This document shows positions 16,596 through 35,774 of a stretch of DNA of 37,165 nucleotides, one piece after another. The translations under genes were made by a program, and so were the position numbers. This DNA is from a candidate division WWE3 bacterium (GTDB taxonomy: Bacteria > Patescibacteriota > WWE3 > UBA101185 > UBA10185), in assembly GCA_012798115.1 (NCBI GenBank), contig JAAZNV010000013.1, positions 1-37,165 of the forward strand. The letters are read 5' to 3'. Every line of letters starts with the position of its first letter. Position 1 is the first letter of the stretch. Below the pieces are notes generated by a model, which saw only the letters and a list, made by a program, of their open reading frames with translations, did not search any database and was not told the origin of the DNA.

Positions 16596-17258
16596 CTATT
16601 GTGTAAGCCACCAGCTAAACTCACTATTATAAGATACTGGTGTGTCTAGAGTTAATTCAAATCCTTCTTGTGGTTTGATTTGAGACACCCAATATCTACT
16701 GGCAGGTGTGTAATCTTGATTGAATGATACGTACACCTTTGAATTAGCTTTTATTCCTTCGGCAGTAATAAAAACCTTGCTTTGATTTTTGGGTACAAAA
16801 GATGTTCCATTTTGAATGATTTGCGTTTGTTGACTAATGTCACTCACTGTCATTATTTGACTCTTTGACTTACCAAGATGTATAAATCCTAATTCACTAG
16901 CAAGTGTTATTGATACTGCAATAAGGGTTAAATATATTACAACTTGTTTTCTAATCTCTGGCGATGATACTGCCATTAAGAAGCTTTCTATCTTGTTTTT
17001 GGTTTTAAGCTTTTCGGATATTTCTTCGTTTGTGTATCCTTCAGATTTTAGATTTTCTATAAGTATTAATCTATCCACAGACCATGCAGGGTAGTGTCCT
17101 TTAATGTTACCCTTTTTATCTGCCTTTCTAACCATGTGTGAGAGCCATCCTATCTTTGTATAGTATCTTAGTCTGTTGTAAGGGTCTCCTGACCCAAAGT
17201 TAACACCTTTTGATTTTGCCTGTTTTATTAGTTTGTCTATACTAATATACTCATCCAT
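16596..17258 (-). CDS. MerR-like DNA-binding protein anchored in the membrane
   Basis: The 220-residue protein joins a MerR-type winged-helix N-terminus (about 1-85: YISIDKLIKQA, NRLRYYTKIGWLSH, YPAWSVDRLILIENLKSEGY) to one transmembrane helix (about 106-126) and an outer C-terminal domain of about 90 residues. The inside DNA-binding part, outside sensor-like part and single helix suggest a one-component transmembrane regulator, but the signal and targets are unknown. An extended TATAAT is seen upstream on the minus strand at 17298-17303, giving a leader of about 35 bases. The gene is divergent from dprA across a short intergenic region, so control of dprA is an untested possibility. Confidence 0.7.
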   Translation of the reverse strand: MDEYISIDKLIKQAKSKGVNFGSGDPYNRLRYYTKIGWLSHMVRKADKKGNIKGHYPAWSVDRLILIENLKSEGYTNEEISEKLKTKNKIESFLMAVSSPEIRKQVVIYLTLIAVSITLASELGFIHLGKSKSQIMTVSDISQQTQIIQNGTSFVPKNQSKVFITAEGIKANSKVYVSFNQDYTPASRYWVSQIKPQEGFELTLDTPVSYNSEFSWWLTQ

Positions 17259-17391
17259 TAGTTAAAATTTGGGGCAGAATTTACTTAAGAGTGAGTTAAT
17301 TATAGCAGATTTTCAAACTCTAGTGTTAATAGATTTTATCTAGTTGTTTAAGCACTTCATTAATAATAAATTTACAAAAGTGTTTGGATGT

Positions 17392-34321: not shown

Positions 34322-34350
34322 TTGACAATAAGTTGTCATTTTGCTATAAT
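34322..34350 (+). promoter_or_regulatory. Consensus promoter of the rod-shaped RNA
   Basis: TTGACA (34322-34327), a 17-base spacer and TATAAT (34345-34350) are perfect consensus. The start is expected at about 34357. Confidence 0.75.
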
Positions 34351-34356
34351 CTGCCC

Positions 34357-34454
34357 ATAAACAGAGAGCCCTATCCGAGGGGAACATTAAAGCTTCTTGT
34401 GCCGTGGGCAGGGGTACAAGAAACCGTTTCCTTCGGGTAGGGTTCTTTGTTTTA
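34357..34454 (+). ncRNA. Candidate rod-shaped small RNA, about 98 nt
   Basis: From the predicted start the sequence folds end to end. Bases 34359-34381 pair with 34430-34452 in a 23-bp stem without bulges (several G-U pairs). An interior loop (12 bases on the 5' side, 7 on the 3' side) follows. TTCTTGTGCC (34394-34403) then pairs with GGTACAAGAA (34413-34422), with a 9-base loop GTGGGCAGG. The long stem is followed by a U-rich run (TTTAGTTTTAG), as at intrinsic terminators. The next gene has its own promoter further on, so this is probably an independent RNA. It lacks the GGAAG-type SRP loop. A 6S-like role is a speculation from the rod-plus-bubble shape only. Confidence 0.65.
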
Positions 34455-34478
34455 GTTTTAGTGCTTTTGACTGACTCT

Positions 34479-34507
34479 TTGACATACTCATTTCTTTTGT
34501 GGATAAT
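34479..34507 (+). promoter_or_regulatory. Promoter of the GH57-like gene, leaderless geometry
   Basis: TTGACA (34479-34484), a 17-base spacer and GATAAT (34502-34507) end 7 bases before the GTG at 34515. Confidence 0.65.
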
Positions 34508-34514
34508 TACTCCT

Positions 34515-35774
34515 GTGAAAGAAGTGGGGTTATTAATAGACTTATATCAATCTCCTACACAAGAAGAAAGTATTTTTAAGTGTGCAGTATCTGATTTTTT
34601 TATTCCTCTTATCAAATTAGTAAAATCTTTAAAGAACGTAAACATCTCCTTAAATATCCCATTAAGTACACTAGAATTATTGGATAATTATGGATATCAG
34701 TCAGTTATTTTAGATATACGAGATCTTTATGAAAACGATAGGATAGAAATAGTTGGATCTGCCGCTTACAATCCTCTTTTAACTAGAACTCATCCTAAGA
34801 TCGTTGAAAATGAGATTATCTTGAACGAGTATGCTCTTGGGAGTTATTTTGGAGCTAAACAAGGTTTTGAGGGGGAACCTTCTATAATGATAAAAAACAT
34901 TGAAGGATTCTTACCTACAGGGCTTCTAGTCAACACTGATGTTTTAAATATTCTTAGTGACTTAAGCTATACATGGGTGCTAGTTGATGGCAACGTGTTG
35001 CCTTCTTCTTACAGCAATAACTTTGTTTACAAATACAGTGCAGGTTTAAAGCTTGTGATTCCAAACATTGAGATTGGAAATTTAGTTAATCAGTTTAACA
35101 TTAAGAGCTTTGATGAAATTTGGGGATCTATGAAAAGTGCAGAAAAAACCATTGGAGATAAAATAATCATACTTATTAATAACGATATATACCACTCCAA
35201 TGAAATTACAGGACCGGATTTTTATAAAAAGAAGATGAGTATGATTGACCAATTAATTGAGAACTTTTGCAGAGAGAATATTTCAATAATTAGCATAAGA
35301 GATGTTGTAAAGAACTTTAACCCCAAGTTAACATCAGAGTTAAAAGATCTGTCAACCTTTATCGTGAACGAAAATATATATGAGAATGCTTACTCTTCAG
35401 AAGGCAAACTACAAAACTTACTAAAACGTGTAGAGAGAAAAGTTGAGAGTTCCTTTTTATCGATACAATATGCACTGACAGAAGATGACTTTAGCACCAT
35501 TTCTATGTGGAAAGACGATGAAGTTAGAAGAATATCTGATAATAATATTCATAATAAGGTAAGCTTTTATGCTCTATTATATAAATATGTATGTGCAGAT
35601 AAGTATATAGATGCATATAGAGTAAATGGTATTGAAGCAGCTTCTAACCTACCTAAAGTATTCTTGGGAAAATATATGACTTATTTAAGAGAACTCATTA
35701 AATACCGATCGGATGAAGTACTTACAACTGAGGTTTTACCATTAGCGGAAGATATTGAAAATGCTATTAAATAA
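34515..35774 (+). CDS. GH57-like (glycoside hydrolase family 57 type) protein
   Basis: The 419-residue protein resembles the catalytic barrel of GH57 enzymes: an opening strand with LLIDLYQSPTQ (compare HxHQP), IEIVGSAAYNPLLT, and later ENIYENAYSSEGKL. GH57 enzymes act on alpha-glucans by a retaining mechanism. The first-strand His-rich motif is changed (LYQSPTQ), so catalysis is not certain and the family call is moderate. The frame is open from a GTG at 34404, but that start lies inside the rod-shaped RNA. The GTG at 34515 fits the promoter (TTGACA-17-GATAAT-7) and gives a family-like N-terminus without signal peptide, so the protein is cytoplasmic. Confidence 0.68.
   Translation: MKEVGLLIDLYQSPTQEESIFKCAVSDFFIPLIKLVKSLKNVNISLNIPLSTLELLDNYGYQSVILDIRDLYENDRIEIVGSAAYNPLLTRTHPKIVENEIILNEYALGSYFGAKQGFEGEPSIMIKNIEGFLPTGLLVNTDVLNILSDLSYTWVLVDGNVLPSSYSNNFVYKYSAGLKLVIPNIEIGNLVNQFNIKSFDEIWGSMKSAEKTIGDKIIILINNDIYHSNEITGPDFYKKKMSMIDQLIENFCRENISIISIRDVVKNFNPKLTSELKDLSTFIVNENIYENAYSSEGKLQNLLKRVERKVESSFLSIQYALTEDDFSTISMWKDDEVRRISDNNIHNKVSFYALLYKYVCADKYIDAYRVNGIEAASNLPKVFLGKYMTYLRELIKYRSDEVLTTEVLPLAEDIENAIK

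Follow-up and report, generated by a model that had tools for sequence, protein, structure and literature searches.

Small RNAs with the seed in a hairpin loop include RepG of Helicobacter, the siblings NmsR/RcoF of Neisseria and the C-rich-loop sRNAs of Staphylococcus. The candidate RNA analyzed here maps to positions 34357–34463 of the plus strand of contig JAAZNV010000013.1 from a candidate division WWE3 bacterium (positions 1–37,165; hereafter, the window). It shares with these sRNAs a promoter of its own, a terminator-like 3' end, an exposed and conserved loop, and the enrichment of the loop complement near many start codons, including those of genes for carbon metabolism. It differs from them in being a single long rod with one loop; in that this loop is G-rich and complements a C-rich word instead of masking the Shine-Dalgarno (SD) sequence; in that the candidate targets are SD-less or leaderless; and in that the loop is invariant across the whole candidate division.

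6S RNA is rod-shaped, too, and has a fixed gene neighbor (6S-ygfA in proteobacteria), as does the RNA described here, which adjoins a gene for a GH57-like protein; however, the WWE3 rod is only about 100 nt long and has no bubble that is kept in all copies. The bacterial small SRP RNA (RF00169) likewise is a single hairpin of about 100 nt, but SRP-type loops are missing from the rod RNA. The mraW RNA (RF01746) also consists of a rod with an interior loop, whereas its apical loop is different and the rod RNA is not located upstream of mraW; a match to the mraW model (30.8 bits, below the threshold of 50 bits, on the minus strand and without a promoter there) was rejected.

WWE3 are tiny, mostly uncultured bacteria, and almost no small RNAs are known in this part of the tree. 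In the open-licence literature on non-coding RNAs of WWE3/Katanobacteria, small RNAs of the Candidate Phyla Radiation and leaderless mRNAs of Patescibacteria, no such RNA is described; the same literature yielded no regulatory small RNA for WWE3 and no study of sRNAs in bacteria of the Candidate Phyla Radiation.

The rod RNA locus

The promoter (34322–34350, plus strand) consists of TTGACA at 34322–34327, a 17-nt spacer and TATAAT at 34345–34350, exactly as given in the preliminary description of this DNA, and the -10 box is of the extended type, with TGC in front of it. All 24 homologues detected in WWE3 genomes (see below) have the exact TTGACA hexamer, a spacer of 17 nt (16 nt in one case) and a near-consensus -10 box. 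The predicted RNA spans 34357–34463, with the start placed according to the promoter and the end according to a U-rich run (about 34447–34463). When folded from approximately 34357 (109 nt), it forms a rod from end to end with a free energy of -56.2 kcal/mol, compared to -28.2 ± 3.5 kcal/mol for shuffled sequences (z = -7.91; none of the 200 shuffles folds as well). Thus, the rod that had been proposed stands, although its lower stem is longer than the 23 bp originally described: it comprises 27 bp, formed by 34359–34385 and 34426–34452, and shows covariation. The remaining parts of the rod agree with the earlier description and comprise an asymmetric interior loop (34386–34393 on the 5' side and 34423–34425 on the 3' side), a terminal hairpin and the U-rich run. 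The upper stem, which is supported by covariation as well, consists of 10 bp in the window (34394–34403 with 34413–34422; 10–11 bp overall) and closes a 9-nt apical loop, GUGGGCAGG, at 34404–34412, the proposed seed. Many homologues retain the interior loop, but several copies have lost it or have a different shape there. The 3' strand of the lower stem and the U-rich run behind it resemble an intrinsic terminator, and most of the 24 homologues have a T-tract behind the rod.

The spacer of the promoter contains the sequence CCTATA in 18 of the 24 homologues; in the window, this element is degenerate (34328–34344). In the complete WWE3 genome G023, the combination TTGACA-nn-CCTATA is found only at the rod RNA gene, and because this form of the promoter is unique to the RNA in that genome, CCTATA may be the site of a regulator or an RNA-specific promoter element.

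The region of the rod RNA does not match any family of Rfam 15 at the gathering threshold; the strongest of the weak matches is the one to mraW RNA mentioned above. As a separate observation, neither a tRNA gene nor any other Rfam family is recognized in bases 1–140000 of G023; tRNAs are encoded elsewhere in this genome. The rod shape, the single copy and the strong promoter would be compatible with a divergent 6S or SRP (4.5S) RNA, neither of which is otherwise recognized in these genomes. The evidence nevertheless makes this interpretation extremely improbable. The SRP RNA model RF00169 has no match in 57 genomes of the phylum and is positive in 12 of 14 controls, and the M domain of Ffh (PF02978) is missing in all 29 genomes of the class searched and present in 14 of 14 controls, so that an SRP RNA would have no evident partner, the standard SRP is seemingly absent and the rod is not the SRP RNA. 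The earlier observation that the rod carries no SRP signature holds as well: the helix below the apical loop has no SRP-type internal loops. Independently of the rod, WWE3 and the class to which it belongs appear to lack a standard SRP; a regular expression for SRP domain IV retrieved nothing convincing in G023. With regard to 6S RNA, the tentative link drawn in the preliminary description is not supported. The 6S model RF00013 has no match in 10 genomes (a search that is positive in only 5 of 14 controls), and in place of a rod of about 180 nt with a conserved central bubble, there is one of about half that length with an interior loop that is not kept in all copies.

Distribution, covariation and gene neighborhood

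Searched at the DNA level, 57 related genomes yield five clear homologues, all five of which keep the promoter and the fold alike. In the alignment of the six sequences, which was made with MAFFT and is not fitted to a model, compensatory changes are already present in 18 of the 38 base pairs. A covariance model derived from these six sequences detects one copy per genome in 24 of the 27 WWE3 genomes, including 19 of the 20 near-complete ones, and a second model, built from 23 copies, finds matches only in WWE3 among 380 Patescibacteria. The assignment of the genome family with the RNA to candidate division WWE3 follows from a pattern scan of named genomes. In the 23-copy alignment, which is fitted to the covariance model, compensatory changes affect 33 of the 38 stem pairs, the covariation score is 0.642 compared to 0.261 for shuffled alignments, and the fraction of paired cells drops from 93% to 55% or less when the partner is slid by one column. 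Both approaches had been suggested by the preliminary description, i.e., the search of relatives with covariance models and the examination of the stems for compensatory changes. Because of the family-wide conservation and the covariation, the case for a structured RNA is far beyond chance. Together with the conserved promoter and the lack of an Rfam match, these results support the earlier suggestion of a new, independently promoted RNA family; the family, its promoter, structure and covariation and the invariance of its loop are established here at the level of sequence. The sequence of the stems drifts with compensation, and what stays constant is the apical loop, (G/U)UGGGCAGG: the core UGGGCAGG is invariant and GGGCA is unpaired in all 24 copies.

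Several weaker matches were discarded. Those of our own models to the minus strand have far lower scores and are shadows of the palindrome, and a weak match in another genome of the class (G037, E-value 0.06) has neither the promoter nor the loop. Searches of phages and viral contigs for the rod RNA returned no match. In three WWE3 genomes (G002, G016 and G021), neither the covariance search nor a scan for the promoter-plus-loop pattern detects the RNA; given that these genomes are 87–92% complete, it is plausible that the locus is simply missing from the assemblies; in a set of 27 genomes, a gap of this kind would be expected about twice.

In all 24 genomes that contain the RNA, the next gene downstream, on the same strand, encodes a GH57-like protein (PF03065; in the window, 34515–35774, plus strand, with a GTG start at 34515), at a distance of about 12–160 nt, whereas the HTH gene upstream adjoins the RNA in only five of the 24. 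The GH57-like gene is also not found in the three genomes without the RNA, a joint absence that could be explained by one missing region. This linkage is what would be expected if the rod were a cis-acting leader of the GH57-like gene, such that transcripts from the upstream promoter run across the rod and it functions as an attenuator or a controlled terminator. However, the GH57-like gene possesses a promoter of its own, of the leaderless type, at 34479–34507 (TTGACA-17-GATAAT, plus strand, with the -10 box 7 nt before the GTG codon), which the preliminary description had already noted; by inspection, an own -10 box is located just before the start codon in most of the other genomes as well. 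Thus, adjacency is conserved without obvious co-transcription. Furthermore, the T-tract behind the rod points to termination, the distance between the RNA and the gene varies widely, and a leader would leave unexplained the presence of the loop complement at many other mRNAs. On balance, we consider a leader rather unlikely. Outside WWE3, no convincing rod is detected near the GH57 homologues (the best match, with an E-value of 0.009, is partial). A metabolic coupling or a protein partner may underlie the link to the GH57-like gene.

The loop complement at gene starts

The word CTGCCC is the reverse complement of the apical loop and is strongly enriched at gene starts. The invariance of the loop, the presence of its complement at many mRNA starts and the constant adjacency of the GH57-like gene all go beyond the preliminary description. 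Gene starts were analyzed in two complete WWE3 genomes, G023 and G013, and in 700 kb of a third one, G012, with open reading frames called mechanically. Among the roughly 1,730 genes with an ATG start in these genomes, a -10-like box is located 9–18 nt upstream of the ATG in about 500, and an SD-like sequence is present in only about 240. By these signals, leaderless messages look common in WWE3.

At positions +3 to +26, CTGCCC is found 33 times compared to 5.1 expected, and in this unbiased comparison of all 6-mers, only A/T-rich words have a higher z-score. When all 4096 6-mers are ranked by how often the starts of orthologous genes share them, CTGCCC comes first, with 15 pairs compared to 1.38 expected, ahead of TATAAT; this ranking combines three pairwise genome comparisons that share genes and, accordingly, are not fully independent. 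The word is also first when upstream sequence alone is considered (9 pairs compared to 0.40 expected), and in the comparison of G023 and G013 alone, it is present in 8 ortholog pairs compared to 0.71 expected (p = 4e-8), with at most 2 for permuted words.

The enrichment depends on the strand and on the position within the message. The density ratio is 3.28 for CTGCCC in the sense orientation and 0.42, i.e., a depletion, for GGGCAG. Among genes whose ATG closely follows a -10 box, an arrangement that implies a leaderless mRNA, CTGCCC occurs 11 times inside the message compared to 0.62 expected; upstream of the message, the counts are 3 and 1.86, respectively, so that there is no enrichment. 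Genes with an SD sequence show no enrichment either, with counts of 0 inside the message and 2 upstream. The peak is located 10–25 nt downstream of the -10 box, which places it within roughly the initial 20 nt of the transcript; some sites are found beside or upstream of a -10 box and probably lie outside the message. Such sense-only placement within the message is not the behavior expected of a DNA-binding site. Neither is the word simply a peptide motif because its reading frame differs between sites, although a few pairs, e.g., those at the gene for PPDK, are also conserved at the protein level. The flanks show weak preferences (A/G after the word, p = 0.03; C/T before it, p = 0.16). Two other types of evidence were set aside: TGCCCA over the start codon (ATGCCCA) is unspecific, with ATGCCAA equally enriched, and genome-wide counts of TATAAT-spacer-CTGCCC are too noisy for a between-genome test.

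Candidate sites conserved between genera precede the gene for a protein with an NTP-transferase domain (positions -20 to -24 in three genera) and the gene for an epimerase/DUF4012 protein (-8/-9 in three genera). Other pairs between genera involve the genes for DnaB, transketolase C, GAPDH, PPDK, a GPI-family phosphoglucose isomerase and endonuclease III. Sites in single genomes are found at the genes for pyruvate kinase, transketolase N, DnaA, FtsZ, PilB- and PilT-type ATPases, prepilins and a penicillin-binding protein, where FtsZ and the prepilins were named by reading the translations. The only candidate site in the window is located at position -19 of a MerR-like gene (site 17272–17277, gene 16596–17258, both on the minus strand), and the three orthologues of this gene that were checked have no CTGCCC. 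In other WWE3 sequence, the word is present at 5 of 140 gene starts compared to 0.69 for permuted words; in relatives outside WWE3, a small control, it is absent from all 86 gene starts, among them those of the target orthologues in G029.

The three WWE3 genomes in which the RNA was not found still carry CTGCCC at several of the target starts, an observation that counts against the trans-acting interpretation given below. The persistence of the word there would fit a structural RNA with an invariant loop to which a protein binds, e.g., a translation factor or the product of the GH57-like gene, with CTGCCC being an unrelated translation signal; the invariance of the loop and the gene linkage would also suit a protein partner. 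Under this interpretation, however, it would be a coincidence that the top-ranking word at gene starts, out of 4096, is the exact reverse complement of the loop. Moreover, a non-exhaustive look at the 16S region of G023 showed no GGGCAG that would point to the ribosome as an obvious partner. We regard a purely protein-binding loop as unlikely.

Proposed mode of action and biological meaning

Taken together, the observations are best compatible with a lineage-wide, trans-acting sRNA that would pair through its loop with leaderless or SD-less mRNAs, an interpretation that we consider probable. The features by which a trans-acting base-pairing sRNA can be recognized in sequence are present: an independent transcription unit, as judged from the promoter and the T-tract, a conserved and accessible seed, and a seed complement that is enriched and conserved at the translation starts of candidate targets. 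As the loop is the same in all copies, it offers no variation that could covary with the targets. That the RNA is transcribed, that it pairs in the cell and in which direction it exerts control, we infer from these genomic patterns.

Under the proposed mechanism, the strong promoter would give rise to a rod of about 100 nt that ends at its own hairpin and U-run and exposes a single invariant loop, (G/U)UGGGCAGG. In many leaderless or SD-less messages, this loop would pair with a CUGCCC(A) that lies within about the first 20–40 nt, at the start codon or adjacent to it; the isolated duplex of the loop with the target word has a predicted energy of -14 kcal/mol. Pairing would change ribosome entry, most likely by blocking it; alternatively, it might activate expression through stabilization of the mRNA 5' end. 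The genes affected would be those for central carbon metabolism, replication, division, the envelope and pili. The linkage with the GH57-like gene falls outside what such trans-acting pairing explains.

A bolder version of the trans-acting mechanism, in which this one loop would be a master translational switch that recognizes CUGCCC in the first codons of leaderless messages and couples central carbon metabolism, replication, division and pili, seems to us as apt to be right as wrong. Such a switch would operate in bacteria in which neither an SRP nor Hfq was detected; for Hfq, single-sequence phmmer searches of three genomes with two approximate queries produced no match. An RNA chaperone such as Hfq or ProQ is a frequent but not an obligatory partner of base-pairing sRNAs.

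The rod RNA thus represents a family absent from Rfam and from the literature searched that would work in the manner of trans-acting base-pairing sRNAs, and it looks like a previously undescribed global translation regulator in WWE3. The seed and the target word are simple enough for a heterologous reporter, which would make it possible to study the pairing without culturing WWE3. If the proposed mechanism is correct, this would be a rare case of sRNA control acting on leaderless messages, and a single RNA would let a minimal bacterium coordinate its metabolism with the cell cycle.
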